Part shown: in pieces, positions 35,796 to 63,189 of the stretch | Position numbering within the stretch: position 1 is the first letter of the stretch | Layout: each line of letters starts with the position of its first letter | DNA from: Hygrocybe punicea | Lineage: Eukaryota > Basidiomycota > Agaricomycetes > Agaricales > Hygrophoraceae | Assembly: GCA_963556145.1 (NCBI GenBank) | Contig: OY744465.1 | Coordinates: 6,944,001-7,008,000 of the forward strand | Length of the DNA: 64,000 bases | Direction: 5' to 3' | The notes under the pieces: model-generated | Seen by the model: the letters and a program-made list of their open reading frames with translations, nothing else | What the model was told of the DNA's origin: nothing | Databases searched by the model: none | Position numbers and translations under genes: made by a program

Positions 35796-35827
35796 CTAGT
35801 GGGGTGTGGGCCATTGCTTTGCATGGC
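35796..35827 (-). other. Proximal Helitron 3' end (hairpin and CTAG) of copy B
   Basis: On the minus strand: the same 18-nt hairpin (35827-35810), a 10-nt spacer CCACACCCCA and CTAG at 35799-35796, followed by T, as expected for insertion between A and T. The replicase stop is at 35865, so the 3' untranslated part is very short. Confidence 0.75.
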
Positions 35828-35864
35828 ATGTTACTCGTCCCTCTTTTTAGCAAGAGAACAAATG

Positions 35865-38800
35865 TTAAGATTGAGCATATATAAACAGTACAGCATTATT
35901 ACCATTACATGACAATAACTTAATATTTGAAAAGTCATCTATATCACCTTCATTAATACAAATTGATCTGGTTGATATACCATCATGAAACCATACCATA
36001 CTGTTGATGAATATGCGGGCAGTAAAATGTGCATCACCATAGTACACAATTCCTCTCAATGTGAAAGCAGTGGATATGTCATCAATTGACAAGTTTATAA
36101 CTTGACTAACTATTAAATTCTCAATAGAGTCAACTGTAAACATGATTAGAGGTGGAATTTTGTTAAATGCAATAAATTTAGTAATCTCTCCCCAACACAA
36201 TTGACATTTGTGCCGTTGTCTATTAACTATGATTTGAGCAAGACATGCTGAGATTGTTCCAGAAAATGAATATGAACAATGAAAGATGGCATCACATCTA
36301 TCATTTTCCAGAATGGTTATGTTTTCACAATTCATACATTTAAGACAAGTTGAAGTCATTGGTTCATTTGCTTTCATTATATAATGGGCCAAATCACTTA
36401 TGGCAATGCCAACTTGACCATAAGGAAATATTTCGGGTTTATCTTGATGCAATAAATGTCTGATTGTATTTCTAACTGTTTCTAAATCTGTTGTGTTGTT
36501 CTTTGATCGTTTGAATCCTAAGCTCAAAATCTTTAATATTTCATTGATGCTATTGAATCTTTTTTTCCAACTTGATGGATCTTCATTCCATATTGCTAGT
36601 AATATTGTAAAGAGTGAATCATAAGCACAGCTCCAATCTTGCGCATCCCATATAAACCCTTTTGGTTCATTTAATTCAATAGTACTTGTTTTTCATCTTT
36701 TTTTCACTAGAAGATGAACTTACAACTTGTTGTAATTTTCATTTTTTATTTTGCAATACATTGGCTGTGGAATTTTTATGAGTGACAGTGATTGGAACAG
36801 TTCCTTTTGCAGGAACAAAGTTGAGGTTTCTGTAATCTGCCTTTTGATTTTTGTTCATATGTTTAATTAATTGCCATGGAGAGGGCTGTGTTGTGTATTG
36901 ATTTAGTTGCTCCGTGGCTTTCCATGCAATAGCATGATGAATGTTTTTTGGAATATATGACTTTCCTTTCCATTTTCTAAATTGATCAATGATAGAATTT
37001 CGCTGATCTCCCTTGACATGGTCTGGTAAGAGTCCTTGATATTTCAGTTTGGTAATCTCATCAAGCAGTTCTAATTCCCTGAATTCTTGCCTGAGATATC
37101 CAGAAGCACCACCTGTAATTACTTTAGGATCAAAGCCTTGCATGATGATAGTTCCTGCTGCAGATGCACTTCTTGATAAGCAAGTATAGTAGGATTGGTG
37201 GTTTCTACAACTACTGAGGTTGACCACATTGTTAGGACGAGTACGTCCTTGACATGCATAATCAGTCATTGCAAAATTAGGTAGTACCAACACTTGTTCT
37301 CTTGACAAAGATATCACATCATCATTGGGTAATGAGCACATGGTGGAAGTGACATGTTTTGTAATCGGCACAACATTTTCAGGAAGTCCTTCTATGTTAA
37401 TTGTTTTTGGAGGATTCAATAATCTGACAAATAAAGTGTCCAGTACAGTTTGTTGTTCTGGACCTATTGCACTCTGCCAACCCACAACTATGCCCTCTGC
37501 TCCTTTGGTAATGCAGCACTCCATTGCATCATTGTTTCTCAGCATCACTGGTATGCCTACACATAAGTCCAATCTTCCTGGTATATGCTCAGAGGATGAT
37601 GCATGTGGTTGGCTCCAAAGTAGCTTTTGGAGTGAAGGTTCCAATATCTTTGTGTGTCGAATAGGATCCAAAATTGTTGACATGTGATGAGATTTTCTTT
37701 TGCTATTGGAACTAGTAGGACCATTCCATTTGTCTATGGAATAGAATGATGTTAATGGCCTTTTATTTTCAGCAGCAAAACGTTGAATACCAAGTTCATT
37801 GATTTTGTCTTTTTGTGCATTCAATGCAGTTACAACTGATACATTCCTGAATTTCTTTTGGGCTAATTTTGGATCATTTGGACCTTTTCCTGCAATGCAA
37901 GTACGAAGAAATGCAATATCTTCTTGAGTACATGTTTTGTATCTCATGTTTTCCAACGCCTGTCTCAATTGGACATCTTCTTTTGACTGATTGGTTTGTC
38001 TCATATTTTCACGTAATATAACAAATGTTGTAATCTGATGCCAAAGAGCTTTGCCTATAGCAGCTTCCTGATTTGCTATAGTTTGACTGGAATTGATTTG
38101 GACACCAATGGTTCTGGAGTACAAAGGAGCACCACTCATAGCTGGTCGAAGTTGGCCAAAATCTCCTACAAATATCATATTAATGCCACCAAAGGGTTCA
38201 TCATAAACACCATGTGCTTTTGCACACTGAGCACTGATTTTGTACATATCTCTGCAAGATAACATTGACACCTCATCAATGAAAATGTAATCCACACCAT
38301 CAAGATTGGCACAGACTTCTGCAAGGGAACGAGATGAACCCCCATGATTAATTCCCAGAATTGAGTGATATGTAGATCCATTGACAAGGGCAGCAGCACC
38401 ACCAGTTGGTGCAAGAACCACAAACCGATGATTTTCGTTGTGTTTACCAAAGAAACTAGTCAATACTTTGATGACTTGTGATTTCCCTGTGCCTGCCATC
38501 CCACCAAGGTAGCTCATCAGAACTGTTAATCAAGGTAGAGTGATTGGCAATGATATGAAATGCTCTCTTTTGGTCAGTGTTCAACTTGTAATCCTTGATA
38601 GTTACATCAATAAGATGACGATCAGCTCTGTTTGCAGGAATAAACAAATGGTTGATGTATGCTGCATCCACTATCTTGACATCATTATATTGAAAATTTC
38701 CCAATTTATTTATGGTTGCTGTGTTTGTTGGTAAATTTTTATTTCTGTCATCGATGATTTCCTTTTTCTTTGCAAGGACTGCAGTTCTCCACAATTTTGC

Positions 38801-41504
38801 TGATTGTACTACAGGTGGTTCCATAGGTATCAATGGTCCTATATCTGGGGTACCATCAATACAATCATCGAGCCACCCTGACCTTTTCAAAGTTCTTTCA
38901 GCTATCAGCATTTGATCTTTCCTTTTTTGTCCTTTTTGACCAAGTTTCAGGAGTATTTCCGTGTCATTATTGTCTTCATCAATATTGTTGTTGAAGTCGT
39001 CGCCATTAAATGCAAATTCAGCATTGTACATGTCATCCAGTTCATCAAGACCATTTGAGGTCGCCCATGAATACCTTATATCTGCAGTATTATTCTTCTG
39101 ACGTTTAGCAGAGAAATCATCTCTTGCATCCAAACACTCATACCGCAGACCAAAGTATTTCATGATCTCCAGCTCTCTTTTAGAAAACTCATGGTCTATA
39201 AAAGCATTATCCCATGTTTGTAATTTACATTTGAGTTCTTTGCCACTTCTCCATGGCTTGAAAAACGTTAACATTGTACAACAATAATATTCTCGATCAC
39301 CACGGTCAGCCCTTGGCAAAGTGTTTGGAATAAAATTAGGAACTATGAAAGGATCATTCCCTTTCATTTTGGCATGGTGGGTAAGATATTGTGGATGATT
39401 GGAATGTAAAGTATAATCATTTTCAATTTTTGTCAATTTATTAAGATCAACTTCATTTGTTTTATCAGCTATTTCTGAACCTGCATTTTTATTCAAACCA
39501 TCAGGTTTTGGAATTTCATCTATCTCCATGAGTATATCATTATCAATGACATCAGACAAGTTGTAATCACTGGAATAGTCAACATTAGTAGGTTCAGTGC
39601 AAGAGTCAGACAAATCATGACAGCCTAGATTGTCCAAAATATGGTTTTGCATGGGTTCTTTTCTGGCCCTTTTGGTTTTTGTTTTGGTGCGTCTTTTATT
39701 TGGTTCCATAGTGGCGAGACATATCCAGTCATACAGTGATACATTATCATACAAGGCGGGTCTGAACATATAATTATTTACTTTGGAAAGTCCAATGTAT
39801 GCGCCATTATTCTTACCAATAACAACCTTTTGTGCATTGTTTTGGTCTTCACATATATTAGCAATTTCTTCATCAGACCATGCACTGATAACCTCTTGAA
39901 CATAAGATCTCCAAAAGAATGGCACGAATTTATGACTGGTGTAGTGATCAGGATTTCCAAGGACATATAATGAAGCCATTGGAGCACCAATTTCCATTTT
40001 GGAGGTGAGTGAATTGACTATTTGTGTAAACAGCTTTCTGACTTTGTCTTTTCTTTTTAGGTCGCCACCAATCATTTCGGAATTCTTATCAAAAATACTT
40101 TTTATCACTTCAAAAATGCTATAGGTCTTCAAGGAGAATTTTGTAATATAATCTGTTATGTATGCAACTATGGCCTTTATAGCAGTACCTGATAATAAGC
40201 TGGTCACATCAGAATTGCATCGTAGCATATATGTAACTTCAGGTGTCACTGTGTTCATCCAAGGTTCATCATGCTTGAGGTTGAGAGCACCAGTGTTAGG
40301 TTCTACAAAAGTTTGTTGAAAGATATCATGGGGAAATCGTCGTTTACATTCACCTTTCGAATTAAGACAATATGGCTTTTTTTTGCCGTCATGCCTGTTA
40401 TGTACATTTAATCGCAATAAAAGATCATCTACAACATCTTGAAACCTTTGCCACCATGTTGATCTTTTGTCGTGATATTGACAATTCATGGAACAATTAT
40501 ATGATGGTGGATCTGGCATGACACATGTGGGTGGTTGATATTCAGGTTTTGACATTGTCTGTTCCATTTTCTGTGATACCTCATCTTTAGAACCTGTCAT
40601 GAATTGTCCTACACACAAACTTTCCAAGTATTCCACTAATCTTTTCTGAAAGTCAGAATTTTCACCCATAATTTTGTCACGTATTTCCTGAGGTGTAAGG
40701 CATCCCTTTATCCACAACAGCATATGAAGATGCAAGGTAAGACGTCCTTGTTCCTCTACAATTGCATAATAACCTGATGTGTTTCCATACAGGCCAGGAT
40801 GAGATTCATTTATTCCTAATATATGTTTGATGAACATTTCAGTAGTAAAGTGAAAGAAGCGGGCTCCAGCAACTGGATTGTTTGCAATTAGTTTGTAACA
40901 ATCCTGGGGTAGACGTAGTTTAGGATAAAACTTTTCTTTGTTGTCAGCATAATATAAGCATAGTGGGTGATTGATGTCTGCAGGTGCAAAAGTGATAAAC
41001 CAAGTCGGAGCACCAATATAGGATATCAGAGACCAAATCTCATTTCGCATGTATTTCTTGTTAGTAATTGAACCTTTGACCTGACCAGCTACGTGATCCA
41101 GATCAGAAATGAGTTTATAGCATGCTTTCTCTTCTGATGTATCCGGTTTAACTCTATCACCTCTAGATAATCTTTTAGAGAGGTCATCCAAAACAGCTGT
41201 ATTGATATTCATCAGGCGATCTGCAATATCGTTGAAATTATGTTTATTAGTCAACAAATATCCTCCGGTTGTACTGTCCTTGATTTGTTCTTGATTGAAT
41301 GCAATCAATGGAAAATAGGGATCAGTTTGAAATCTTTTGTCATGGTACATCAGAAGATGCCTTTTGTGCATCATATCACTGATGCTTAAAACATCCTTGT
41401 CAATGCTGCTAATACCACCCAAGCCATATGGAAATAGGCAGGGAAACATCATAGGATATAACTGAGGATTATTAAAGAACGATTCTGGATTTCTAGCATG
41501 GCTT
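35865..41504 (-). pseudogene. Helitron replicase, Rep-helicase-peptidase part (type II, copy B)
   Basis: Rep domain (41504-38456): NPESFFNNPQLYPMMFPC, HUH motif GRLTLHLHMLLW, tyrosine motif YITDYITKFSLKTY. Helicase (38517-36739): Walker A GGMAGTGKS, Walker B FIDEVSM, GDFGQLRP, RENMRQ, CQGRTRPNNVV, YYTCLSRSAS. Peptidase (36700-35865): WSCAYDSLFTILLAIW and YYGDAHFTAR with VWFHDG. A frameshift near 38515 separates Rep from helicase (SSDEL then MSYLGG), and there is at least one further break before the peptidase near 36740. The N-terminal part continues at 47918 after the LINE. Same domain order as the type I gene, but clearly a different lineage. Confidence 0.85.
41492..41504. repeat. Target-site duplication of the LINE (3' side)
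   Basis: TCTAGCATGGCTT is identical to 47918-47930. Both copies are the replicase codons for SHAR. Confidence 0.9.
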
Positions 41505-42031
41505 TTTTGTTTTTTTGTTTTTTTTTTTATCCAATTTTTGTCCATTGGGGCAAACCCTATGTAGGACCTTACATGTGGGCAGGTAGAAATGATTAACTAA
41601 ATAAGGGACCTTCCCTTTCTGCGTCTCTGACTAGCAAGTGCAGTTCCGACGAGTGACCCCCCCGGAACCCCAATGCTTCCCAGCATTGTTTTACTTGCCT
41701 CGTTCGTCTGATGAGATTGCCCTTTTTCTGTTGTTTGTGGGTACTGGTGGTCATCTAGTAAGTGCTCGGCCGCGTGTGCGGGTGTGCACGATGGGCTAAC
41801 GCAGAGAAAAATGTAAGTATAAAATGAGCGTGAGGTGCGGGGGCGTGAATTCTCGTGGGTTCTCGGATTCGCGTGACGGCTGTTTCGAGGAGTGCGGAGC
41901 CTATTGTGGGCAGGTGAGCGAGAGGGCGAGAGGTGGAGGCAGTTGGTTGGTGTGCTTGTGTGTTGTTTGTAGTGGGTGGGTATCCACAGGGTTCACGATC
42001 GTGGATGGTCATATCTGTTGATGTGGGGTGG

Positions 42032-45000
42032 TCAGTGATGTTGTGTAGGCTGAGATAGGTCACCAAAGGTGGTGGCGAGACGGCCAGTTCTTCCTATGTA
42101 TTTTAATAGCTCCGAGACGCCATCTTTTGTGTTGAGTAGATATCTGAGTGAGTGAGCGTTGTGACGGAGTTTGATGAATAGTAGGTGTCTTGGGTGATCG
42201 TACGCTGGGCAGTCAAAGATGAAATGATGAATGTTCTCGTTGGTGTGTCCGCAGTCGGGACACGATGGCGAAGGTACTTTGTTGATCTTATAAAGATAGT
42301 AATTCAGCGGAAAGTGACCTATACGGAGCTGTGTCAGTATACTGCTCTGCGATTTTTTGAGATACTGGGTCAGCTTGATGAAATTTCGTATTGGGAATGT
42401 GGGATCAATGCGAGTGAATCGGACGTAGCAAGGGGATGTTTTCCACTCCTCCTCCCATTTGGTCGCCATGGACTTTTTGAATGCCGTTTTGATTGCAGAG
42501 GTACCCGACGGAAGGGTGATGCCCCGTAGCCATATTGGTAGGAGGTTGCGTGCGCTTGAGGAACCTTGGGCAGCTCTTTTCGCTTCTTGATCCGCTGCTT
42601 CGTTACCTACTACGTCATCGTGAGCGGAGATCCATCTAATAGTAATTCTTAGCTGTGGGTTTGTCTCAGCTAGGTGGGTTCTCATGTCCTGGAACTCCCT
42701 AACAATGTACTGTCCCGTGCTTGACTTTAGGCATGGGCGGCCTGTCGCGAGGATCGTAGATTGACTGTCGATGTATATTGTTGCCGTCCGTGGATGGGGT
42801 TCCTTGCTGAGTAGGTGTATGGCGAGGGTGCAGGCCAGCATTTCGGCTTCCGGGTTGGTGTGGTTGTCGGTCGAGCCTAGGTGATAGCGTAGAATTTTCG
42901 TCTGTGTGCGGCCCAATCTGTATAGAATAGCTGCTGATCCCACTCCGCCTTCGAAGGCTGAGCCGTCAGTGTAGATTTTGATGTCTGCTGGGTCGGCCTG
43001 TTCTTCTTGTAAGGATCGTTCTCTGGAACGGGCAACGTGTGTACGGAGAGCTGGGAACTGTGAGCAGGTCGGTGGTGTGATCGTTTCGGTGTCATCTGGA
43101 CTTATGCGGTATAGGTGCGTTAGGGTGTGTAATGGTGATTTGTGTCTGAGGACTAGATGTTTAGCGCATTGTCGGATTGGTTTGTAGAGTGGGTGTGATG
43201 ATGGTAGAGTGGCCATCCTTACAATTGCCCGATGACAGGCTCTGTGAAGTAGGATGTTAACCGGCAGAATACCCGCATGCATGTCGAGTAGATCGGTGGG
43301 GGAGGATCGTAGAGCTCCGGTTATTTTTAGTGCGGCCATGCATTGTGCTTTCGTTAATTCTCTCATGGCTTTGACCGAACCCCGCTTGTTCTTGTATCCA
43401 GGTACTTTGTGGACTGGGGTGTACCAAACATCGGCTGCGTAGGTTATTTTGGGAACAGCCACAGCATTATAGAGTCGTCACATTAGTCTAGTGCTGACTC
43501 CGGTTTTGGTCCTGGATAGTCTGCAGAAGAGCGCGATCCATTTGGTGGCATTGGATAGTGTATGGTCTCGTTGTTCGTGCCATCGTAGTTGTTGATCGAA
43601 TATGGTGCCTAGGAAGCGATGTGATTTCGTGGGTTTGATTGTTACGTTTTGTAAGGTTAGGTGCGGTCATGCGATCTGCCGTTTCTGTGAGAAGTCAATG
43701 AGAGCAAATTTGTTTGTTTCGAATTTGGAATTGTGGTCTCTGGACCATTCGTATGCGCCTCCGGATCTATTCATCATGTCCTTAATGGCTGTATGTGTGT
43801 GGGTGAAGCTACGACCTTCCGCGTAAAGTGCGGCATCGTCTATGAAGGCCACTGCTAGCTCGTGGGGACCTACGGGGACGTCTAGTAGATCAGCATTGTA
43901 ATACAGGTAGATAATCATAGATAGTGGGTCGCCCTGTCCGATACCGTTTATGAGACGGATGGGGTCGGAGGTGTAGTCGTTGAACTTTAATCGTGTGGTT
44001 CGGTCCGATAGTATGTGTCCGATGATGGTAACTATCTGTTCCGGGATGCGACGTTTTCGTAGGTTATGGAGTAGACGGGCTGTGACCGCGTTTGGGAATG
44101 CGCCTTCGATGTCCAAGAATAGGATGGTTGCAACCCTTTTGTTTCTCCAGGCGTGCTTGATGCGGTTGACTAGAAGGTGCATTGAGTCCGTGGTCGAGCG
44201 TCCGGGTCGGCCGCCGAAGTGGGTCGATGGTAGTAGTTGGTGTTCTTCGGTTAGTTGTACGATGATTTCTGTCAGGATTGAGGTTAGTATTTTTGGTAGG
44301 GTATTGAGGAGGGCGATGGGTCGGTAGGCCTTGGGAATGTTGTAGCGGGGCTTGCCAGGTTTTCTGAGTACGCAGGTCGTAGATTCTTTCCAGCTATTGT
44401 GATATGTATCGAGGTCGAAAAAGGCATTGTAGATGTAGAATAGATGGTCTATAATGATTGGGTTTATTTCTTTGAGTACCACGTTGGGGATGCCGTCGGG
44501 TCCTGGGGCTTTGAAGGGTTTTACTTTGTTGATGTGTCTGGTTATTTGGTCCCGCGTGATGATGGGCGTGTAGGCTATTCTGGTGGGATATTCGTGATTT
44601 GGTGGGACAGTGGAAGTAGGTGGGGGAGGTGGGAAGAAACTTGCTGCGATTACTCTGCTTTTGTCTTCGTTTGAGGAGGCGTGTTTTGTGGTGCCGTCCT
44701 GGACTGTGTTTTCGAGTGTGGGTATTACCGTGTTGCCTCCGTCTCTGCGAGGGTAGTCACTGATTGGATTGGAGATACAGCGGTTGACCGTCCATAGGCT
44801 GTAGTCGTTGGCCTCCTCTAAGAAGGCCGTCCAGTGGGCTTCTTTGGCTTTCATGATGGCTTCACCATAGCTGTTCCTGGTGCAGCGGTATTCTTTGTGG
44901 ATGGGGTCATCAGGTAGAGCCCGTTTTCTATACGATTCGAAACTTAGCCTGTTTTTCTTTTTTCTCAAGTCCGAGAGGTCCTTGTTCCACCATCGTTTTG

Positions 45001-45970
45001 AGTGCGGGGTCGGCTTAGAGATGGGTACTATCTCATCGATGGTGTCTTGTATCGATTTTGTCAGATTCGTGATGGTTTGAGTTAGTTGCTGTTTGGAGAG
45101 AATCTTGGTTGGCTCTGGAAAGGGTCGTAAGCAGGTGGTTAGCGTGTCACAGAATTTGTCCCAGTCAGTCATTACGAAGTCGCGTTTGGGTGTGTGTGTG
45201 CGTGTGTGGGTTTGAAAGAATAGTGAAGTAAATATTGGGATATGATCGGTGCCGGTGGGTCGGTCGTTGGGTTTTGTGCCGCATATGAGTATTGAATCTA
45301 AAGTTTTTGCTGAGCAGAAGATGTTATCAGTTCTTGTCCAGTTTTTGGTGGCCATGGATTCCAGGGTGGGCAAGTCTTTGGGCAGCGCCATCGTCATGTT
45401 GTGATCGGTTACAGCCTCTATGAGTAATCGTGCTTGGTCCAGGGCGTTGGCGGTGAATAGGTGGTGGTTTCTTTCCTCGTCCCATAGGGGGTGGTGTCGG
45501 TTGAAGTCGCCGCACCACAACATGTGGTCATTTGCGTTTTGATGTAAAGAGTTTTCGTTGTCCTTGGTGAATTGTGTTAGCGTTGTAAGGTTAAGAGAGT
45601 GGAGACAGTCATTGTATATATTGAAGATGGAGAGGTTGGCATGTGGACTTGGGATACGGATGGCGGTAATGTCGTTGGTGTTGGGGAGTTTGATCTGTTC
45701 CCATGTAGTCGTGTCTAGTTTAGAGTTAACTAGGATGACTGATCTGACGGCCGAGTCGAGGTTGAATCGGGATGTGGGATATATGACCCTCCAGTCGTAT
45801 GTGGCTTTCGTGTTGTTGTATCTGTCGAAGTAGGGTTCTTGTATTAGTAAGATGTCACATTTATTGAAAATATTTGAATTCATGAGGTCCCACTGCGCTT
45901 TGGCTGATTTGTTTAAGTTGATTTGCCATATATTTATGCGGTACGGCTGTACGTTGGGTTGTTCAGGCAT
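42032..45970 (-). pseudogene. LINE ORF2: AP endonuclease, reverse transcriptase, RNase H
   Basis: Endonuclease residues visible from the start at 45970: NIWQINLNKS, LIQEPYF, WCGDFNRHHPLWD, GTDHIPIF. RT: FKAPGPDGIP, RPIALLNTLPK, TILFLDIEGAFPN, GIGQGDPLS and AVAFIDDAALYAEG, with FIDD as the catalytic box. RNase H: KIYTDGSAFEGGVGSA, NPEAEMLACTLAIH, IYIDSQS, HDDVVGNEAADQEAKR. A C-terminal CCHC motif reads CPDCGHTNENIHHFIFDC. Two in-frame TGA codons, at 43669-43667 (after SQKRQIA) and 43480-43478 (in RLM-RLYNAV), replace expected CGA arginines. The start overlaps the ORF1 stop by 8 nt. Confidence 0.9.
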
Positions 45971-47749
45971 GGGTCAAGTGTATGTTGGAGTTGGACGTTG
46001 ATGCTCTGTTAAAGGCGGAGAGAGGGGATGGGGGGCGGTCGCCCCATCCTTCTGGCGTGCGAGTGCGTGGATTAGGATCATTGGGAGGAGCCCGTTCATT
46101 TGAAGTGAAGGGCAGGGTCGTTTGTGCGAGGTGAGGGTGTATGTCCCGAGGGGCTCTATGATGGTTTTGGTTTTGGTTTATGCGCGTGATGTTGGGTCTG
46201 GGTGGGGGGAATTGGTGAGCGTGCGTATTAGGAATGTAGTGACGGTCTTCGTTGCTTAGTGATCTATGTCCGTGAGGGTTGGGTGTAGGGTTCGCCGGGG
46301 GTGTGAATGCGTGAGTCCAGGGTTCGTCCGTGGGGTAGTAGGGCATTCGGTTTTCTATATTGTTAGTGTCTAGATCCTTACATTTTTGGATGAAGGTGGG
46401 GCAGGAACGGTCCCAGCTGGCGTGGCCATCCTTTCCACAGGGTGTACAGTGTAGTTTATTGTTGTCGGTGCAATTGGCCGTTCGGTGGTTGTTGCCGCAT
46501 GTGCCGCATATGTCGTTCGGGGCTGGGCACGATGAGGCTACGTGATTCCAGCGTTGGCAGCGCAGGCAACGAAGGGGTTCCCTTTTACATTTGTTGGCTT
46601 TGATTCGTTTGTGGCATATGTAAAAACCTTTGGAGATAATGGAGTTAGCGACATCGGGTGAGGAGGTAGTGAAAATGGCGTGGCCGCAGGTCTGGTTTGC
46701 AGCGCGTTTTTCTTTTGGTTTGATCCAGTTAGCTTTGGTGATGGTATTTGTCGGTAGATCGTTTATCTCTTTGACCTCCCTTAGATGTTTTACGTTTTCG
46801 GGGTCGAATGTGAGAGGGATGAAGTATGCGATAATTGCATATGACCGTGGCTTGATCTCTGCGCCGTAGCCGAAGTCGTCTGTAAATCTCGTATGTTGGG
46901 CATCGGTTAGTAGCCATTTCACAAGTAGATCTGAATTTGCTTCCAAGAGTACTCCTCCATTGCGTAGTTTGGTTGCGCCACGGAATTTTTGGCCTTCCGG
47001 GGCGCCGTTTGTACTGATAATTTGGTTGGCTTTATTTAGGATGCCTGCATGGCTGAGCTTTTCCAGGTCCTCGTGATGGGGGGGTTTATTGTCGAGGAGT
47101 ATTTGTCGGGCTTGCAGGGCCTCTCTCGAGCTAATTGATGGGTTTTTAGTGTTATGGTGAGGGGGGGGTCTTACTTGATTGATGAGGACGTCTTTATACG
47201 TGATCGTGGTAGCTTCTATTGCGTTTGTTGAGTTCTGTAGGTTATCGGCAAGTTGTTGGAGCTGGGTCTTGGTGGCTTCCAGGTTGGTTTCGACTTTCTT
47301 GGTGATCCTGTCTACGATCGCGTCAACGATCGGGTCAAAGTCCTTCGTGAGAGGGTCGAGCTGGTGTTGGTCGATTTTGAGCTTGTCCGTAAGCTGTTTG
47401 GATAGTGCTGCTGCTTTGAGTTCAAGATCGAGGTCCAGTAGGATGAAGGCAATTGATCTGATAGTGTCTATTGCTTCGCGATTTCCAGAGAGGTCATTTC
47501 CTGTAGCCAGATGAAATAACATCGCTGATAATATGGTGGTATCATTTTCTTTGTGTTCTAAAGAGTGGAACTTAGCATTGAGGTATTCTTTAGCTGCTTC
47601 CGGGGAGTCGATGTCTTCATCTTCGGTGTCTTCTTGTCTGTTATCTTTCTTTTTCGGGTACCGGGGGCAGTGGACGATCTGGTGTTCACGGGGTCCTGGT
47701 TTACCGACTTGGAGCTGTTTTTACCGGTGATGAGCATGGCCTGGCGCAT
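45963..47749 (-). pseudogene. LINE ORF1: gag-like protein with zinc knuckles
   Basis: The main frame is 47522-45963, with a coiled-coil-like N-terminal region (LDLELKAAALSKQLTDKL) and three CCHC-type knuckles (CLRCQRWNHVASSC, CGTCGNNHRTANC, CTPCGKDGHASWDRSC), which bind element RNA in relatives. The same frame is protein-like further upstream (DTEDEDIDSPEAAKEYL), but the likely start MRQAMLITGKNSSKS at 47749 is in another frame, so a frameshift near 47640 is inferred. The stop codon overlaps the ORF2 start (ATGCCTGA), compatible with coupled re-initiation. Confidence 0.8.
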
Positions 47750-47917
47750 TGTTAAGTGATTGTTGGGTTTGTTGTTTCTTGTGGAACTGGGGATTATATT
47801 TGTAGCGATTATTGCGATTGTTGATTGTTGGGAGGGCCTGCAGCCGCTGTAGATGAGTTCCTTATTTCGGGGTCCCAGAGGGGTACCACGTGGTCAGGGA
47901 ACAAGGACCTCCACTCC

Positions 47918-47930
47918 TCTAGCATGGCTT
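47918..47930. repeat. Target-site duplication of the LINE (5' side)
   Basis: TCTAGCATGGCTT, identical to 41492-41504. Confidence 0.9.
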
Positions 47931-49770: not shown

Positions 49771-50794
49771 TATCATGCACATGAAAAATAGAAACATGAG
49801 TATCACAAGCTGAACAATTATGCCTCATTAATGCCACAGATAGATCTTGTCCATGTAATCTTCGTAATGTCTTTGACAAATATATACCATGTATTGTTGT
49901 TATTTCACCAATATCTTTCACCGTCAACTTTGGCAGAAGTTCATGTAAAGGCATTTTAACACATACATATTTTTTTTTATCTCCATATAAAGTGTTGGCT
50001 GTTTGTTCATCAATATGCCCCACATATTCGAATAATATGTCAGAATCATGGTTGATATTATTAGACGGTAGCATGAAAGATTGAAGAAAGCTAAACTTGA
50101 ATGTTGGTATTTGTTTACCACCACCAATGTAGTCATATCTATGAACGGAATTTATATATAAAGATTTAAACAAGTTTCTGAATAAATTCAAATTGAACAC
50201 AATTATGTTTGAATGGCTATGCCGTATTATGAAACATAGTGTGGTCCACAGCAACATTGCATGTGATAGAGAACTAGTAATGCAATGAAATAAATATGAT
50301 CTGAAATCATGTCGTTTCAATAGCGATCGCATGAGCAATGCATTGATCATTTTACAACGACATTGGACAGTGATAGGTTTGAGAAGACAATACAAAGCAA
50401 AGAGATATTTAGAAGGTAAGAAATATGTTCTGGCATATTGAATAGAATGTAATTGCATATTGAATGCGCTATCTTTAAATGTAGTCCAAGCGAATAATGC
50501 ATTGAGCGTCAAAGTATTATTTGTTATTTCATTGAACCTTACACATTGTGTTGCATTTATGTGCATCAGTATTGTTGCATCGCCCTGATCTGGGGCAAAC
50601 TCATGTTCTATGAGTTTTCTTTGAAAAACACCCAATTCTTGGGTCAAGGTCGATATCAAAGGAACGGAAATTGGTTCAAGAGAGATATACATAAGTTGGT
50701 CTTGGCATAGTTGTGGAAATATGGTTGCGTTTGCAAGGAAATGTAGAACAGTCAAAACCGCAATGCAGATATGGATGGTATCGTGGAGATTCAT
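49771..50794 (-). pseudogene. Helitron replicase, N-terminal part (type II, copy B)
   Basis: Starts MNLHDTIHICIAVLT at 50794. The second half aligns with 15480-15890 of the type I gene (LFEYVGHIDEQTANTL, HELLPKLTVKDIGEIT, NCSACDTHVSIFHVHDI). The first half is hydrophobic and poorly conserved. Continuity is broken by the MITE at 49770. The start Met is supported by conservation at 82 in copy A. Confidence 0.75.
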
Positions 50795-51748: not shown

Positions 51749-53672
51749 TTAAGGCCCAGGGTCCAGTTTGGATGTCGACGCCTTGGGAGATGAAGACCTC
51801 GTTTGGCTCGGAGGAATGGAGACTAGGATATCGGGAGGAACGATATTGCTCCAATCTACATCCATTAATAAACCGCCTGGCTCCACAGGGGTCGACGACT
51901 GATGGCGTGACGATGCAAGCCTATTGGGATGGAATCCTAGGATATTGACATGATCAGATGTGAAATCTATATAAAGTGTGATGTACATACCCGGAGTCGG
52001 AGACTTCTTCGGAGGCTTCACTGGCTGGAGTGTTTCTGCAATAATGCCTGCTTGCTCCGATGCCAGATCCAGCTTCCTCCTCTTTGCTGTCTTGCCGTCC
52101 TCATGATCGCCGCTGAGAGACTCCTGTATGGGTTCGGGAGGTCCATCGTTGTCGTGCATGATTATATCGTCATCAGAAATCATCAACCCGCCCCATTCTG
52201 GCAAGTCCAACTTTGCAGATTCCAGTGGCACATCATCCGCCTCGGAGGAGATGGGTGGTTTAACTTCCACCATCAATTTTTCGGATTCCGATTTCTTGGA
52301 TCCGCACAATGGCCCAATTTCGACAGCGACTGCGACATGTCAGTGCATTATTCAGAGCAAAGTGAGTAACGTACGCATTTGAGCCTTGGATCGTTTCTTC
52401 TTTACTGGGGCTACGTCCTCCTCCATCTTGATATTGTCTATGCATGAATGAATAATTTGCGTTATAATCTTGATATTTAGAATTTAATAACTCACCCTCA
52501 GTGTCGTCATCGGGTTTGGACTTCACGGTGCGTTCTGTGATGATGAGGAGTTACCGTGTGTGATGATCACAGACAATGACACTACTTACTGGGCTTGGGC
52601 TTGGGCTTGGGCTTGGGCTTCTTTTTATCCTTCTCGGACAAATTGTCTGTGCCACCTGCGTCACCTGAATATTCAATACATCTATCCACTGATATGGGTG
52701 AAAACATTTACAAACCAGCGGAAGATACCTTCTGTGTTCTGGCCGATTTTGACTTCGCTTTGCCCTTGCCCTTGCCCTGGGGAACTGGCTCTTCTGCAAA
52801 TGTATTATATTATTAGCACATTCACACATGTAATTCTAGATCACACCTTCATCGTCCTCTGCCACATCGGCATCGACGAGGAAGCTATGTCCTTTACACC
52901 ATGCAATAACCTGACCAATGATTTCAAGCTTTGTGGCGTCTGGCAGCCCACCAAACGACCAATTTGCAGAGGTTCCGCTGTGCCATGCTGGCACGGATTC
53001 GTCGTATTTTGCCCAATCTATGATGCCAGACGTGAGATTTCATTTGGCCAGAAATGCATATATCTACTCACCTAGGTCCTCGGGCTTGATCTCGGTGTTC
53101 ACGGTGCCATGTTGAATCAAAGCGGATGGAGAGTGCTTGCCGACATAAAACTCTTTGAGGAGCCAATTGTCGAAGATCTTGCTTCGCCAGTCATGGGTGA
53201 CCTCGTTGGCCCGTTTTGCGACCAAAACCTCTGCCCAAATTTCATCCATGACGGTGTCGGTATACTTGAGGTAATCCTGGAGTGAATCGGTCCCTTCCTT
53301 ATCGTTTTTGACGTAGTCCGGCGAGTAGTTGGGTGCCTTGTTGTATGAGATGGCTGCTGTCGCGTAGATGTACATATCCATTTGATAAATTAAGCGATGG
53401 AGCGGTTCCTCGTATCGTTCGGGCATTTCACGCCATAACTCGCCTCGGGTGGTGGCATCATGGGGGTGAGTCTTCAGTACATATAGGTTACAAGAAAAGA
53501 TGGGGACGGTGCTGGAATCCTTGTTGGGTGCCGGAATCTTGGGCGGGACCATGTACTGGATTTGGAAAATGCGATGCAGCTCCTGCAGCTTTTTGGGCAG
53601 CGCATCAGGCCAGTATTTGAAAGCCGTGGGATTGACGGCAGGAGTCGAGGTTTTGACGATGGGCAAGGACAT
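51749..53672 (-). CDS. Accessory gene G1 (copy B): lysine-rich protein of unknown function
   Basis: Starts MSLPIVKTSTPAV (ATG 53672-53670) and ends KLDPGP, TAA 51751-51749, exactly 1,924 bp like the copy A gene. Exon structure is the same. The conserved N-terminal block includes FKYWPDALPKKLQELHR, YATAAISYNKAPNYSP and LKYTDTVMDEIWAEV. The frame looks intact here, while G2 and G4 of the same copy have stops, which argues for later constraint or for chance. The (GGGCTT)-type run at about 52590-52620 is one unit longer than in copy A, giving an extra KP pair. Function unknown. Confidence 0.7.
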
Positions 53673-54029: not shown

Positions 54030-54420
54030 GAATTGTCGAACACTTGTCGAACACTTGTCGAACACTTGTCGAACAGGCCAAACAGTGTTCGACAAGTGTT
54101 CGACAAGTCATTTCCATGTTAATAAATCAAGTGGAATATTTATTAACGTAGATACGGCTTGTCGAACACTTGTCGAACAGGCCGAACACTGTTCGACAAG
54201 TGTTGGACAAGCCATTGCTATGTTAATATATATTACACTTAATTTATTAACAAAGCAATGACTTGTCGAACACTTGTCAAACAGGCCGAACACTGTTCGA
54301 CAAGTGTTCAACAAGCCATACGGACATTGATTAACGCATCAAGATGAATATGACTAACAGAACACTTGCCGAACAGTGTTCAGCCTGTTCGACACGTGTT
54401 CGGCAGGTCGTTATATTGTT
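54030..54420. repeat. TGTTCG palindrome array in the G1/G2 divergent promoter (copy B)
   Basis: Four palindromic blocks of the type CTTGTCGAACAGGCCGAACA followed by the inverse CTGTTCGACAAGTGTTCGAC. They are centred near 54080, 54185, 54290 and 54385, with AT-rich spacers containing TTAATAAATT-like sequence. The unit sequence differs from copy A but the TGTTCG/CGAACA core and the location are the same. Confidence 0.9.
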
Positions 54421-54688: not shown

Positions 54689-56506
54689 ATGCCCAAATCA
54701 CGCAAGGAAGTTGGCTACGAAGTGTGCTGCCACATCTGTCCAGGACGAAACTGCCTCTCGATCCAGATGCAAACTCTCCTTTGGAAAAAGGAAGGAAGTT
54801 CCTGTCAGCGCCATTGTGGATCCGCCAGCAAGCATCCAAATTGCATCGCATCCGGTACCTGTCCTCTATCCAGCTGTATTGGACGGAAGGGCGCAGAAAA
54901 TTCCATGGGTGTTTGAAATGCTACTGAAGAGGAACTCGCGTTGTTGCCATCGACGGCGTCCAATACACCAGATCCCACTTCCGATGTAGAGATGGAGGAT
55001 GCAGCCATGAGCACAATTACACAGTCCGTCAGGACCGATCCCATTTTCCACATCATCTTTGTTCTTGATCCCACCACCCATATTACAAGTAAAGCGGCCG
55101 CAACCAATGATCTTGCATTCGTCAACGTTACGGTTTCACAAGACGAATACGAAACCGTCTCGCACCTTGATGGTTATATTCACAATATCAAGGCGCACAA
55201 GACGCGATATTTTGTTTGCATGCAGGAATGGGTTTGTATATTTTAAAAATGTATGGAGAATTATCGCTAAAGAATACTTTCCAATTCCAGGTTTATGTTG
55301 CTATGTGAATGCACCACTGGCGGTGTGACGAACCCAACGGTGCAATACGCCGCTTCAATGTTGAATACATGTTTTGGCCGGAGTTCGCCCATGCCATGCT
55401 CAAATCACCGCACTCAAATATAACATGGAACAAGTTCAAAGCCACCGATTGCGTATTTGGTGGTGTGGACATGGGAATGTCCTATATGTGAGCGTGTCAA
55501 ACATTTTTGTCAATTTTCCTTTTTTTTAATTCAGTTAATTCGAATATCATTTATAGTGGTAATCAATATGGTATAACAGTCGAAAACGTGTCGACATTCT
55601 TGGCCGGAATTGACGAGCTGTGTCGAACAGTTCAGGTGTGGCCACCACCAAAACAAATGAACACCATGCATTCGAAATGGACGCAGATGCAAAACCTGCT
55701 CCATGTTGCATTGTCAACGACACACACGATGCGACCACAATTGAGGCTGCTGAAGGATGGTGAATCGTTTCCACCGAACATTGTTTTGAAGCGAACGCAT
55801 AGTGACACCGGTCACCATGTGTTGTTCCCGGGCGATCCAAGGCGGAATTGGGACTATATGCGCCTGAACTGCAAGGTCCCCAGTTCACGTTGGTTTGGTC
55901 AAACCTATGTTGAGCCGCTGGCCAAGATCGGAGAATGGCGAGTATTTTTGTTAGGTGGAAGGGACATTTACACAGTCCATACGCATTACAACAAAGAGAG
56001 CAAATCGTGGAGGTGGGATATTGTGACGACCTTCTATACTTTAGAGGAATTGAGGTAGGCAGATGCCCCCCGTCTCGCATTACATGTTCACGAGTCTTTG
56101 GCATTTTCCAAGATCGTTCCAAGCACAGGGAATGCTCATGAAGACCGATGTTTGCAATCCGGATCACGGCTCCATTGCAATTCGAGATCAAGCAAGACAG
56201 CAATTCTTCGGCTTCGTATGAGACACCTATGAGGGGCTGTATGCCATAGAGTCGACGTTGATTGGTGGGAAACCTTCAATGAGTGTATTTTGTCGCATGG
56301 ACATTTCGCTCATTGTTGATTCAAACACCAACAATGTCAATTACTTCGTGAACGAGATTGAACGGTATCACACCTGCAGCTTGTGGTCCAACATGAAGCA
56401 AGGCGCGAAATCAGCTCAGGCACCAATCGGATCTTTTGCGGACACATTTTCGGCGGTATTTTATAAATGGCTGGTAGACATTACAAATGCATACTCCTAT
56501 TTTTGA
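54689..56506 (+). pseudogene. Accessory gene G2 (copy B): ATP-grasp-like, three nonsense codons
   Basis: Same four-exon structure as the copy A gene. The Cys-rich start reads VGYEVCCHICPGRNC; the ATP-grasp motifs are FPPNIVLKRTHSDTGHHV, GEWRVFLLGGRDIY, CRMDISLIVD and FVNEIERYHT. TGA stops lie at 54914-54916 (copy A: CGC), 55307-55309 (copy A: CGA) and 56219-56221 (a glutamine CAA in copy A). The rest of the frame is well conserved, so inactivation is recent. Confidence 0.8.
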
Positions 56507-56681: not shown

Positions 56682-58700
56682 TTAATGAGAGATGCCCAAT
56701 ACCATCACCCACTGCACATTTAGGGAAATACTCTTCAACAAATCATCAGAGCGTTTGAAGGTATTGATCGTGTGGCCAACCACAATGCAGGATTCTGCAG
56801 GAACATCGCCTGGAAAGTGGGGGAGTTGCTGAAGTATTTTGAGGGTGTCGGTAAAGTCGGTTTTAACTTTCCAGGCATCACAGATTGGGACTATGAATAC
56901 AAGCATCAAAAACGAAACCAAGGACCTTGTGTGAGAGAGAATAAAACTAACCAATGTCATGGAATGACAGCGCAGTCTTTTGGTAAGATGGAGCGGGACG
57001 TCAAGTAAAAGGACTAGACTGCACGAATTTCGAAGAGGAAGCTTCTATTGAATATGAGTAAGGATTGACAAGAGAGCATTGAGTGGTATACTCACTGCTA
57101 GGAGATGCATCCATCCCACTTGCCGCTATCGTCAAGAAGGACAGAAAGTCCTTATATAGTTGTGCACGAAATTCCACCTCACCAGTAACCATTCCAATGG
57201 CGCCAACATACCGCTCCCATTCTCCTGAAAATAACGCCCCTTGGATAACTTTGATCGGTTTTGTGTTCCCACCAACTTTTGGCTCATCAAGGAAGCATGA
57301 ATCGACTAGAATGACAGAAGTGAAGATCGTTGGGATGGCACCAGCAACGGAGTGGAAGAAACTACGCCCAAATGCTCCAGTAGAGATATTGGTGGGATCG
57401 TCATGAGAAAGATTCGAGTACTTGCCAGATTGAACAAAGGTCACTGCAGAGAACAACAAACTGTTATGTGATGTGAATTGTCTTTAACCGTCAAGTCCTA
57501 GTTGACAGCTTACTTTTGGTTGACCTTGCGAATGTTGCTGATGACATCGCTATATTGAGGATTTCCATTCCCTATGGCACTAGACCAAGATACCATGGCC
57601 GCTGCCCTATTCAATATTTAACATTGATTCAGAAGATAAAACTGAATAGTTACTTAATGTTGACACAGTCCTTATATGTATCGACCAACTGAGGGTCTCT
57701 TGTACCAATGTCGGACTCATCCGTGTTTGGAGACCGTATACTAAAGCAAGGGCATCAATTAAAAATATAATAGAGAGATGTAATGTACCTGGTGATTTGG
57801 TGTTGTGCATATGTCACAGCTCCATCATCACTACTGGAAACATTGTCGTCACTGATATCACGAAGACGGGTAGTCTTTGTGACTTTGGACGATATCGCCT
57901 TCATGGTTTTGACAGATGTATCAGAGTTGCTGATCATTTATTAATATATGAAGGACAAGAATCATATGAAGTATCATACCAAAGACCATTATCTGCATTT
58001 GATTTCTTAGAACCGAATTCGAGTTTTGTGATAGGCCTACAACATGTCTAACATATGACCAATTAATCAATTTCCAACTCACATGAATGTTTTGTCGCTG
58101 TCGTCATCCTCATCATGTAATTGATGCTGCTTTGACTTTGACTTCTTCGATGGAGAAGAGAATTTACTATATAAAACGATTAAATAATACACAAATATAA
58201 AAGACCTTATTTAGAGCTACTGACCTGTCTTCGTCTTCCTCTGAAGCATGCCACCTTTTCCCGCTAAATATAAAGAATATTAGATGGCATGAACAGTATA
58301 AATTGAACTTGCAAACCTTGCTCTATTGGTGGTCTTCCTGGACCGCCTATATTACTGAAGTAAATCAATAGTATCTGAAAATACAATTCATGAGACACAC
58401 CTCATAGACGAGACAGGTTTGACAATGCTAGCGACGCTATTAACACTAATAACGTCTTCTTTGGAGTTGGCAATACTACTGGCAGTTTAGTTGTGGTGGA
58501 TGAATCAGAATATTGGAATAGACACATACACTTCTTCATCGACAAGCTTGGTGGTTGTGACCTTCTTACCCTTCCTAGAAACAACAGTATGACCTTTGTT
58601 CAGAACGAACAGCAATACATGAAAATAAATATACATACGAAACGGCACTTGATCGAGCTTTCGACTGAGTCTTCACGTTCACAGACTTCTTAGGGGCCAT
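56682..58700 (-). CDS. Accessory gene G3 (copy B): micro-exon gene
   Basis: Starts MAPKKSVNVKTQSKAR at 58700 and ends VLGISH, stop at 56684-56682. Conserved blocks are DESDIGTRDPQLVDTY, AAAMVSWSSAIGNGNP, VTFVQSGKYSNLSHDDP, AFGRSFFHSVAGAIP, GEWERYVGAIGM and VPICDAWKVKTDF. The micro-exons of the 5' half are less well preserved than in copy A, and I did not verify every splice join, so it may be a pseudogene. It converges with G2. Confidence 0.55.
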
Positions 58701-58925: not shown

Positions 58926-60667
58926 ATGCAAAAAATCAGGGACATTCCCCATGATGTAGAACCGATGATTGACCAGCTGTTACACTCAGCATCATCCAAC
59001 AACATGGATATGGATTACTGGTATGCAGAATAATCAAACACTAAATCTAATTAGGGTTTGGGAATGTAGAACAGCTGTCACCACATGGAGCTGATCATAA
59101 GATCATAACACCGCCAAATTGAACATGGAAATTTATGTGACATATATACTCATTTCCAAACAAATATAAACATCAGATCAACTATACTGACACTTGCATC
59201 GGAACAAACATTCTGAATGGATAGGGGTTTCCTTTCAATGCTGTACAATAAGGAGGTCAAGAATTGCCGATAGGTGTGGATGTATATCCTGTCCTATGAA
59301 AATAGAAGAAAACAATAGGAATCTATTGAGAAGATCTGCAAAATAAAAATGCAAACACCATACAAACATCACAAGTTCGTGGCGAATGAACATGATGCAC
59401 TGTCGTAATATCAATAACGATCGAAAACAATTCATGATAAAACAGTTGGAAATGGTGCGTGAATTATACCCCCCTGTTCCCACTTCGCAAATGGACACCT
59501 ATTACGATTTCAAAACAGCATGTCAGTACAGATTCTATTGAAGGAATTCATATATTCAACTCTACTGTACAGCTGAACGTTTAAGCAATCTCATATCTAC
59601 ACAGATGGACAATGATGACAGCCAACTTGCCAATTCTACAAATGTATATTCAATTCTTATGATGTACACTGTGTTTCATTACATTTGCAGATTTCAAATA
59701 TCAATGTAGTGCGTAATGACTCACCGGATTGCTGGAAACTTACACGGCCAAGCACCGATACCACTGAGCATGAAGAGCTTGTCTTAAGCTTACAGGCGAT
59801 ATTGGTGGCCAAAGACCTACCACCGATCATCAGCAGGTAGATTATATCATCATCTAGAATCATAAACAATTAATTTACATATGTTTTTCAGACCGCCCGA
59901 ACGTCAAACACCGTTTCTCCGTCAAAGCATCCTTATCACAGGCCTCAACATACCATTATTCGAATCATATATTGACAACCTCTGAATCTTACACCAGAAA
60001 CTTGGTCGTCACTTCCCAGAACGTGCAATGCTGGACTTCACATCAACCACCTATATTGAATACACTGCATTATCTATTGGCACCTGATATTTCACTGACC
60101 GCCGACATGACAAAGTTTCATACAATATTCCATTCTAACACAATGTCGATTCCAAAGGCATACTGTCATCAATGAGCAATACTCGATACTTCCATGGGAC
60201 AGACAATGAGGTCCTTTATTTCAAGTTGACGTCAGAAGGAGGACGGCATTGGTGAGTGCTCAGCACAACAATAGCTTGGCTATTAATAATGACATAGATC
60301 ATAGCTTTGTACCTGCCAGTCCGACTTGCTTCAGGATTGGTGACATTGTAGAAGTCCAGATAACGGTATCGGTGGTTCCAGTTAAGAACGACAAATTCAA
60401 GATGATTCTGAATCTGCGCTCATTAGCGCTGGTCGACAGCGAGTTTACTGAGGTAACAGACATATCTAATAATACAATGAATAATAACTAATATCCATCC
60501 AGAATGCAATGATAAGTCAAAACAAAGCATCTCAACCTTCTCGCAATACAATGACGAGGACTAATATCAAACGTAATGTGGGTTATGTCCAGTTGGCTGA
60601 TGATGGTGAAGATGTCATAGAAACCTGTAGACGTTTGACCAACCTCAGGATGAATGAAGCCGATTAA
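58926..60667 (+). pseudogene. Accessory gene G4 (copy B), stop codons
   Basis: A possible first exon reads MQKIRDIPHDVEPMIDQ (58926). Later exons match copy A: NDDSQLANSTN, DSPDCWKLTRPSTDTTEH, RQTPFLRQSILITGLNIP, YFTDRRHDKVSYNIPF, CFRIGDIVEVQITVSVVPV, KFKMILNLRSLALVDSEF. In-frame stops include TGA 59983-59985, TGA 60085-60087 (copy A has CGA) and a TAA near 60137. It ends at TAA 60665-60667. Confidence 0.65.
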
Positions 60668-60949: not shown

Positions 60950-61820
60950 CTTGAGACAGTTGTAGAACGGCTTGTCAAACGCTGTTCGGCCTGTTCGACA
61001 AGTGTTCGACAAGCCCATCATTAATAATACAATGCGCATTGCAAACTTAGCTAAATGCCATATAATGGAAATTCGGCTTTTGTTATATTTTCAATGATTG
61101 AAATGAAGCTTGAGACACTTGTACAGTGGCTTGTCGAACACTGTTCAGCCTGTTTGACAAGTGTTCGACAAGCACATTATTATTAATACAATGCACATTG
61201 TAAACTTAGCCAAATCATTTTCAATGATTGCAATGAAGCTTGAGACAGTTGTAGAACAGCTTGTCACACACTGTTCAGCCTGTTCGACAAGTATTCAATA
61301 TTTACCTTATAAATACTTCTACTGCACATAGCACATGTATCTATATTACCGCAACATTTGACACAGTTGTTTGTGCAATCGCAACCACTTAGACTAAAGC
61401 TGGGACACTTGTCAAACAGTTGTCAAACACTGTTTGGCCTGTTCGACAAGGGTGCACTATTCACATTATTAACAATGCTAATAAACTCAGTACATGTACC
61501 CACATCCAAGATACATGCAATATATTGTTCGTAAAAGTGTTTGTGCATGAGCAATGCCTCAGACTAAAGCTGGGACACTTGTCGAACAGTTTTCGAACAC
61601 TGTTTGGCCAGTTCGACAAGTGTGTACTGTTCACATTATTAACAATTCCAACAAACCCAGTACTTCTTAGCTAGTATATTGTAGATATGTGCCATATATT
61701 GTTCATACAAGTGTTTGTGCATGAGCAATGCCCCAGACTAAAGCTGGGACACTTGTCGAACAGTTGTCGAACACTGCTCAGCATGTTCAACAAGTGTGCA
61801 CTGTTTGCATTTAACCATTC
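60950..61820. repeat. TGTTCG palindrome arrays at the distal end of copy B
   Basis: Two unit types. 60940-61300: about 125-bp units with TTTCAATGATTGAAATGAAG, GTTGTAGAACRGCTTGTC and CTGTTCRGCCTGTTCGACAA. 61390-61800: three units of about 170-180 bp with GACTAAAGCTGGGACACTTG, GTCGAACAGTTGTCGAACAC and CCTGTTCGACAAGTG. Each unit contains a TGTTCG/CGAACA inverted pair. Confidence 0.85.
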
Positions 61821-61959
61821 CATTGCACTACCAATGCATTCAATAGTTGTACAAAGTTGTCAAACATTTGCGGCTTGCAACGGCGATGCAACCATGCTAT
61901 AACAGTATCTATTCCGAAATTGGCATCTGTGATCTAGGCAGCTGTGATCCGGCTGCCTT

Positions 61960-62152
61960 ATTGTACTTGCTGATTGGGACAACAAATTCTCACACTCAAC
62001 TCTGCCCAGTCACACGGTTTCATAGTTATTCCCAGGGCTTCAAAATTGTTCCCACAGTTTGGAAATTTTGTTCCCACGGCTTGGCAAATTAGAGTGTGAC
62101 CCTGAGTTGAAAAATCTGCCATATGGAACAATTCCCTTATAGGGACTCGTAA
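61960..62152. other. Shared element terminus with hairpin (copy B)
   Basis: Counterpart of 11850-12076. It ends in TCCCTTATAGGGA (62133-62145) and ACTCGTAA. The next base begins unrelated sequence belonging to another Helitron. Confidence 0.65.
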
Positions 62153-63180: not shown

Positions 63181-63189
63181 GCAACTAGT

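Follow-up and report, generated by a model that had tools for sequence, protein, structure and literature searches.

Two copies of a Helitron with four additional genes

A 64,000-nt stretch of the Hygrocybe punicea genome (contig OY744465.1, here C7, positions 6944001-7008000; 'the window') holds two copies, A and B, of one Helitron-type element. The order of features is common to both: replicase (- strand), G1 (-), a palindrome array, G2 (+), G3 (-), G4 (+) and a terminal segment. A preliminary description of this DNA had reported that the block is present twice in the same order and orientation, and nucleotide alignment of A with B confirmed this at a level beyond chance, with 84% identity in the G1 region (2,451 columns), 71% in G2 (1,175 columns), 71% in G3 (739 columns) and 86% in the terminal segment (224 columns). 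The limits it had given for B, 35796-62152, also held: the CTAG at the replicase-sense 3' end starts at 35796, two bases inside the start of the A/B alignment at 35794, and the 5' end is at 62152. The left end of A lies ~7.73 kb to the left of the window (~L027:2266-2268, equivalent to window position -7734). The remaining coordinates are collected in Table 1.

In copy A, G1-G4 all splice to uninterrupted frames of 514, 545, 473 and 330 aa, the gene models being predictions from sequence. One modelled junction in G4 is non-consensus; a one-base shift turns it into GT-AG and alters one residue. The aligned codons of copy B contain two in-frame stops in G2, two in G3 (one of them at an exon edge, where it may be intron), three in G4 and none in G1. 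As spliced genes, G1-G4 are intact in A and not in B. Both replicases in the window are also broken: that of B is split by a long interspersed nuclear element (LINE) and a foldback insert, and that of A has a premature stop. Elsewhere in the genome, 33 of the 131 replicase matches listed (counted by hand, twice) lie in a frame that stays open for 2,588-2,594 aa, and the match itself contains no stop. The borders of the LINE share a 13-bp overlap, which we take as its target-site duplication. The foldback element of B (~0.8 kb, 48986-49775) has a related inverted pair in the distal region of A (10187-10658).

The mobile unit contains the four-gene module

We searched the whole assembly (92.2 Mb, 42 contigs) for further copies. 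For nine G2 copies, the 10 kb to the left of the G2 start and the 10 kb beginning 4 kb to its right were compared, and the intervening 4 kb was left out. From the G2 start leftwards, through G1 and on into replicase sequence, all nine match A with 99.0-99.6% identity along 7.9-9.7 kb. The right end is identical to the base in eight copies, the ninth being unreadable at that place. The left end was located in further sequence for seven of the nine; its pattern is absent from the first pieces of copies c2 and c3, whose ends a genome pattern scan places farther out.

Two clean uninterrupted sites lie in the window itself, at 57972 (flanks ~94% identical) and at 19826 (79-86%). Occupied and uninterrupted sites differ by the element alone, and the target is one T on the replicase strand, with no duplication. 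The site at 19826 is the relative of copy c7b (C7:7235702), an A copy that interrupts the helicase gene of a different Helitron, at what looks by eye to be the Walker A motif. A third site, that of copy c8 inside a B-type array, is less clear than these two. Copy c39 was also considered as an empty site; its left flank mapped into another element copy, so it was not used.

Searched with up to one mismatch, the two end patterns occur 327 and 354 times in the genome, and not at all in a reversed control. On contigs C1-C3, where the perfect-match lists appear complete, a left end on the same strand lies no more than 45 kb from 55 of the 66 perfect right ends (nearest-partner pairing, a few left ends being shared). 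The spacing is 17-30 kb for 39 of these pairs, 1.6-5.1 kb for 11, 10.3 kb for one and more than 30 kb for four; 29 of the 39 enclose a listed G2 or G4. For the 28 listed G2 copies on C1-C3, a perfect left end lies 5-26 kb away in 24 cases and a perfect right end 7-9 kb away in 21; 27 copies have at least one of the two.

Linkage to the replicase was then counted. Among the matches listed, a replicase on the opposite strand lies at a distance of 4.4-7.2 kb from 69 of 79 A-like G2 copies, compared with ~0.5 for random positions (a control in which the sizes of three contigs are approximate). The 79 are the N-terminal G2 rows, with one partial row and the later-exon rows set aside. In a wider list, covering 150 of 227 G2 candidates, at least 91 are near a listed replicase: 73 of 87 in class A, 18 of 50 in class B and 0 of 13 in class C. 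At least 91 of the 131 listed replicase matches are near a listed G2. As the replicase list was drawn with the A query, these linkage figures are lower bounds.

The mobile unit contains the G1-G4 module. The preliminary description had proposed that the genes travel with the replicase; in this one genome the linkage figures give no refutation of that proposal, and the contiguity of all nine copies, the paired ends and the two uninterrupted sites place the module inside the unit that moves. The element is high-copy, ~19-20 kb long and probably autonomous, and judging by copies that are ~99% identical it has probably been active recently.

The ends resemble those of Helitron2

The replicase of B matches Helitron_like_N (E 2.8e-32) and PIF1 (E 3e-16) and has an N-terminal DUF6570. 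In A, HLH, YITDYITKF and Walker A, which we take to be replicase motifs, fall within one 1,727-aa frame. The combination of a Rep (HUH) protein with a PIF1-type helicase that is expected of Helitrons is present, as is insertion without target-site duplication at the two clean sites. In replicase sense, the element runs from 5' TTACGAGTCCCTATAAGGGA, with a hairpin, to AGGGACGAGTAA-CAT-GCCATGCAAAGCAATGGC, again with a hairpin, and CCACACCCCACTAG at the 3' end.

Which kind of Helitron this is can be judged from the ends. The canonical 3' CTRR with an upstream hairpin is found (...GCCATGCAAAGCAATGGC-CCACACCCCACTAG); the 5' TC and A|T target of canonical Helitron1 are not, the 5' end being TTACGAG, the preceding base G or A and the target T. 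The 'proper Helitron end' first ascribed to the 3' side of the replicase is correct as to the CTAG, but the ends are non-canonical and a 5' TC is absent. There is instead an asymmetric terminal inverted repeat: the 5' TTACGAGTCCCT and the reverse complement of the 3' subterminal AGGGACGAGTAA are identical at 10 of 12 positions by eye, and the 3' copy sits 35 nt inside the 3' end. The 5' hairpin is seen in a computed fold; the 3' stem (GCCAT/ATGGC) was read from the sequence, and the fold pairs those bases only partly. An asymmetric repeat and hairpins at both ends are features of Helitron2 (PMC5148889). Helitron2 elements insert between T and T; here the target is T at both clean sites, and the next base is T in six of eight copies, one (c39) having an uncertain left flank. 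The apurinic/apyrimidinic (AP) endonuclease that is fused to the replicase in Helentrons is not part of this element, since the endonuclease in B belongs to the LINE insert and is absent from A. By this anatomy the ends match Helitron2 rather than canonical Helitrons, and we class the element as Helitron2-like.

Module and arrays differ more than the replicase

The replicases of A and B are 97.3% (5,721 columns), 96.6% (1,075 columns) and, on the N-terminal side, 93.7% (954 columns) identical in nucleotide sequence, and the module proteins have A/B identities from 0.83 for G1 down to 0.54 for G4 (Table 1). Module genes and arrays diverge between lineages far more than the replicase. A further lineage, A2 (L038, L039/L040), has an A-type central array and an A-like G2 (0.97). 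Its G3 and G4 resemble those of B (0.87 and 0.74) more than those of A (0.69 and 0.65), and its distal array is B-like. Judged from these similarities, A2 is a mosaic with swapped G3-G4.

We estimated nonsynonymous (dN) and synonymous (dS) divergence by NG86 on aligned exon pieces. For G1, dN/dS is 0.22 between A and B (bootstrap 0.15-0.30) and 0.32 between A and A2. For the other genes dN between A and B is 0.23 (G2), 0.17 (G3) and 0.32 (G4), with dS >2.5, i.e. saturated. Between A and A2, G3 has a dN of 0.19 and a dS of 2.1, and dS for G4 is not computable. G2 of A and C differ with a dN of 0.20, only 46 of 159 fourfold sites being identical, and there is no stop in 509 codons. These values indicate purifying selection on G1-G4 between lineages, which supports the initial view that the genes do not reflect random capture.

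Iteron arrays are retained in short derivatives

GAACA/TGTTC palindromes cluster between G1 and G2; B and A2 have a further cluster close to the 5' end. Counts of CGAACA/TGTTCG reach 25 over 621 bp of A, against a shuffled mean of 0.9, and the two arrays of B have 17 and 13 (shuffled means 0.7 and 0.6). By the same shuffle comparison, coding regions, replicases and a stretch outside the elements were at chance level only, and the distal region of A was weakly enriched (3 vs 0.4 expected, equalled in 2 of 300 shuffles). The core motif is lineage-specific, CACCGAACA in A and CTTGTCGAACA in B, and A2 combines an A motif in its central array with a B motif in its distal one. The arrays change very fast: across ten A copies (~99% identical; including c1, c8, c35 and c7b) they range from 0 to 14 units, in both orientations.

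There are 11 short paired elements on C1-C3, of which we examined five, 1.6-3.0 kb in length. All five retain both ends (~62 bp of the left, at least ~216 bp of the right) together with iteron arrays, whose 5-23 matches compare with shuffled means of 0.1-0.9 and were reached by 0 of 300 shuffles. Open frames in them extend to at most 96-168 aa, depending on the element, and none has a nucleotide match to the coding parts of A or B or of the A2 module. Because these gene-less derivatives keep only ends and arrays, the arrays probably act in cis. As array type and module change while the replicase varies little, the arrays are more likely read by a module-encoded factor than by the replicase; the argument is one from co-variation between linked segments.

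Candidate functions of G1-G4

The C-terminal part of G2 weakly resembles ATP-grasp enzymes. In G2 and two database relatives (P0001, P0002), the same part of the protein gave sub-cut-off matches to GSH-S_ATP (E 0.036 and 0.0038), RimK (0.018), R2K_3 (0.14) and glut_syn (0.011), and G2 and its relatives conserve KRTHSD.G.HV, EWRVF..GG and R.D...YFVNE.E. G2 is possibly ATP-grasp-like. G1 has no Pfam match above cut-off, the sole row being YL1 (E 0.0065) over a charged low-complexity tail. Likewise, G3 has no Pfam domain above cut-off, and its residues 180-473 found no relative in the protein database search. NCBIfam and Pfam scans of the database relatives returned nothing above cut-off. A search of 5.8 billion proteins gave three relatives of G4 at E <=0.01, of which two come from Piloderma croceum and Infundibulicybe gibba. 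In viral contigs, stretches match short patterns and none encodes a relative of G2 or G4. An OB-fold/RPA reading of G3 and G4 found no support in the Pfam and relative scans and is not claimed.

A model and its alternatives

We consider it probable that this is a Helitron2-like rolling-circle transposon with G1-G4 and the iteron arrays as integral parts that serve its own propagation. In such a model the replicase would carry out rolling-circle transfer from one hairpin-bearing end to the other and insert the element at a T without target duplication. At least one module protein would bind iterons specific to its lineage, both in the G1-G2 interval and close to the 5' end, and this binding would either license replication or excision or keep the element unsilenced. 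Modification of a partner protein would fall to G2, possibly an ATP-grasp ligase; G3 and G4, which appear to have been exchanged jointly in the A2 mosaic, may act together.

A more specific version is that of matched cis/trans control, in which module proteins read arrays that co-evolve with the module, the replicase stays near-constant, modules are exchanged as in A2, non-autonomous relatives parasitise the system via the arrays, and an ATP-grasp enzyme takes part in licensing or anti-silencing. We put this forward tentatively, as a scheme that could well be wrong in this full form. To our knowledge such a system would be new for Helitrons. If arrays and module do form a matched system, this would give a testable handle on rolling-circle licensing or silencing escape, and on which non-autonomous relatives can be mobilised.

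Several observations weigh against this interpretation. None of the 13 class C G2 copies has a listed replicase close by, and since class C keeps G2 without nearby G3 or G4, the set of four genes is not invariably complete. In the one class C element read (L047), a stop-free G2 is separated by 1.4 kb from a 5' end; the 5.4 kb read, which takes in 1.9 kb to the left of G2, has no G3 or G4 match, either there or between G2 and the 5' end, and shows no replicase. That the same full-length genes recur, as was originally claimed, fails for copy B with its stops in G2, G3 and G4, and the compared A2, B and D genes hold 0-3 in-frame stops each, some perhaps intron. In lineage D constraint is relaxed (dN/dS 0.33 for G2, 0.42 for G3 and 0.89 for G4), and this lineage is probably decaying. 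A/B identity drops gradually, from 97% and 94% to 84% in G1 and 71% in G2-G3, so that fast module evolution and recombination are not cleanly separable; G1 of A2 is about equidistant, at 0.87 to A and 0.85 to B. As to the arrays, the distal array of A is one palindrome and copy c7b has no central array. The five short elements amount to about three families, making the independent number fewer than five, and their 5' arrays may have been kept partly through adjoining the end. Array and genes are physically linked, so the pairing of gene with array is not separable from that linkage. For the proteins, the ATP-grasp matches are below curated cut-offs (E 0.0038-0.036; one 0.14), comparison of G2, G4, P0001 and a profile of G2 with PDB sequences gave matches only at E 0.1 or worse, and the predicted structures of the G2 core (P0001) and of G4 (P0003) are of low confidence (mean predicted local distance difference test, pLDDT, 40 and 33). 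The roles suggested for G1-G4 are deduced from the anatomy of the element.

Other explanations fit parts of these data. Starship elements carry cargo that benefits the host, and G1-G4 could likewise be cargo, with selection acting on a trait of the fungus and not on transposition. Full-length spliced genes under apparent purifying selection would fit this, as would the lack of any Pfam match of G1-G4 to a known transposition protein. However, dozens of near-identical copies exceed the needs of a host trait, short derivatives retain the arrays, module and arrays vary together and many copies are broken; we think host cargo unlikely. Ordinary gene capture, with host genes taken once and amplified without a role in the element, has precedent in Helitrons that carry captured genes, fungal ones included (PMC4289320; PMC6431247), and a host source gene may exist beyond the matches listed. 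Against it, synonymous divergence between lineages is saturated while the proteins are conserved, the order of the four genes is shared by A, A2 and B, and 27 of the 28 listed G2 on C1-C3 are beside an element end, which makes capture very improbable.

The arrays might also be only a shared promoter or enhancer of the divergent G1 and G2, since the central array lies between the two start codons in both A and B. B and A2, however, have a second array close to the 5' end, and derivatives with neither G1 nor G2 also keep arrays; we think this reading rather unlikely. Finally, nested and adjacent insertions do occur in this genome, so the module could be a separate mobile element or tandem neighbour, with the Helitron ending upstream of it. 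The contiguity in nine of nine copies, the paired ends at 19-20 kb and the two uninterrupted sites refute this reading, to which we give almost no credence. A transposon that uses G1-G4 and the arrays for its own propagation accordingly remains our preferred explanation.

Relation to known elements

In the usual view, Helitrons consist of a replicase and captured gene fragments. The Helitron2-like fungal element described here keeps four apparently selected genes together with arrays that gene-less derivatives retain, and seems to swap module parts between lineages. HELPO1 of Pleurotus ostreatus represents a group of basidiomycete Helitrons that reach 13.7 kb and hold between one and four resident genes (PMC4289320), and our element is similarly a basidiomycete Helitron with several resident genes. 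In HELPO1, capA and capB lie downstream of the replicase-helicase gene (RepHel), whereas G1-G4 are on the RepHel 5' side in mixed orientations, and HELPO ends are canonical (T[C/G], CTRR, AT target; PMC4289320), unlike those of A and B. The same source reports capB in a few other basidiomycetes, in the same orientation as RepHel save in one uncheckable case, and tegument, viroplasmin or RNase-H-like domains in some HELPO1 cap genes and none in others (PMC4289320).

Helitron2/FoHeli of Fusarium oxysporum shares the asymmetric terminal inverted repeat, with a 3' copy ~20-40 bp inside the end; FoHeli1 and FoHeli2 have hairpins at both ends, and FoHeli1 copies are >99% identical (PMC5148889). FoHeli elements are ~5-11 kb, compared with 19-20 kb here, and the accessible part of their description has no four-gene module or iteron array (PMC5148889). 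Fungal Helitrons with a TET/JBP gene, of both Helitron1 and Helitron2 type, also carry a resident gene, proposed there to allow escape from methylation-based silencing; theirs is a single TET/JBP gene (PMC12730594), and G1-G4 have no such Pfam match. Plant Helitrons with an RPA-like protein (Mothra) again have a gene beyond RepHel that is thought advantageous, and in non-autonomous Mothra elements tandem-repeat blocks were proposed to improve transposition (PMC4683698). G1-G4 differ from the Mothra protein in having no RPA homology in Pfam.

Searches among open PMC papers listed no description of this gene set, nor any Helitron with an ATP-grasp protein. Helitrons with accessory genes, fungal ones included, are already known. 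A functional analogy may be found outside Helitrons, in VANDAL transposons, which are Mutator-type plant elements. In VANDAL/VANC anti-silencing, a transposon-encoded sequence-specific protein acts on its own element (PMC5735166, PMC10398659). The VANC-like parallel would be one of motif and module association only.

Other features of the window

Table 1. Features of elements A and B (window coordinates; A extends beyond the window into L027)
Feature	Position	Strand	Remarks
Element A, part in window	1..12076		whole element ~L027:2266 to window 12076, ~19.8 kb
Replicase frame of A, N-terminal part	1..121	-	468-aa stop-to-stop piece reaching window 121; remainder in L027; one premature stop
G1 of A	1171..3094	-	8 exons, 514 aa
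Palindromic iteron array of A	3545..3975		82-bp unit, core CACCGAACA/TGTTCGGTG; between divergent G1 and G2
G2 of A	4225..6047	+	4 exons, 545 aa; Cys-rich N-terminus
G3 of A	6135..8182	-	13 exons, 473 aa
G4 of A	8845..10100	+	6 exons, 330 aa
Single distal iteron palindrome of A	10826..10875
Replicase-sense 5' end of A	11931..12076	-	TTACGAGTCCCTATAAGGGA..., terminal hairpin
Element B, whole	35796..62152	-	~26.4 kb including inserts, ~19.2 kb without
Replicase-sense 3' end of B	35796..35856	-	subterminal AGGGACGAGTAA (partner of 5' repeat), hairpin GCCATGCAAAGCAATGGC, terminal CACTAG
Replicase of B	35865..50712	-	PIF1 in 36742-38529, Helitron_like_N in 38459-41596, DUF6570 in 47897-49021; two inserts break the frame
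LINE in replicase of B	41505..47917	-	AP endonuclease, reverse transcriptase, RNase H; not part of the Helitron
Foldback insertion in B	48993..49767		775 bp, 367-nt arms
G1 of B	51752..53672	-	83% aa identity to A
Iteron array of B	54037..54402		core CTTGTCGAACA ... TGTTCGACAAG
G2 of B	54689..56505	+	66% aa identity to A; in-frame stops
G3 of B	56691..58700	-	71% aa identity over alignable part; in-frame stop(s); 5' limit approximate
G4 of B	59491..60655	+	54% aa identity to A; in-frame stops
Distal iteron array of B	60971..61797		adjoins 5' end of B
Replicase-sense 5' end of B	62007..62152	-

A second Helitron replicase family is present at 14605-22449 (+ strand), where DUF6570, Helitron_like_N and PIF1 occur across two frames (1603 and 1010 aa); within the window it has no neighbouring match to G1-G4. 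The C-terminal part of a replicase like that of this family occupies 62319-63212 (- strand), continues in L028 and abuts the 5' end of B, the elements lying side by side or nested. Broken frames at 22594-34955 (- strand), with one weak match to RVT_3 (reverse-transcriptase-like), are probably retroelement remains. There is also a 60-bp tandem repeat at 13066-13425, and a CAG/CAA-rich low-complexity stretch at 63712-63997.

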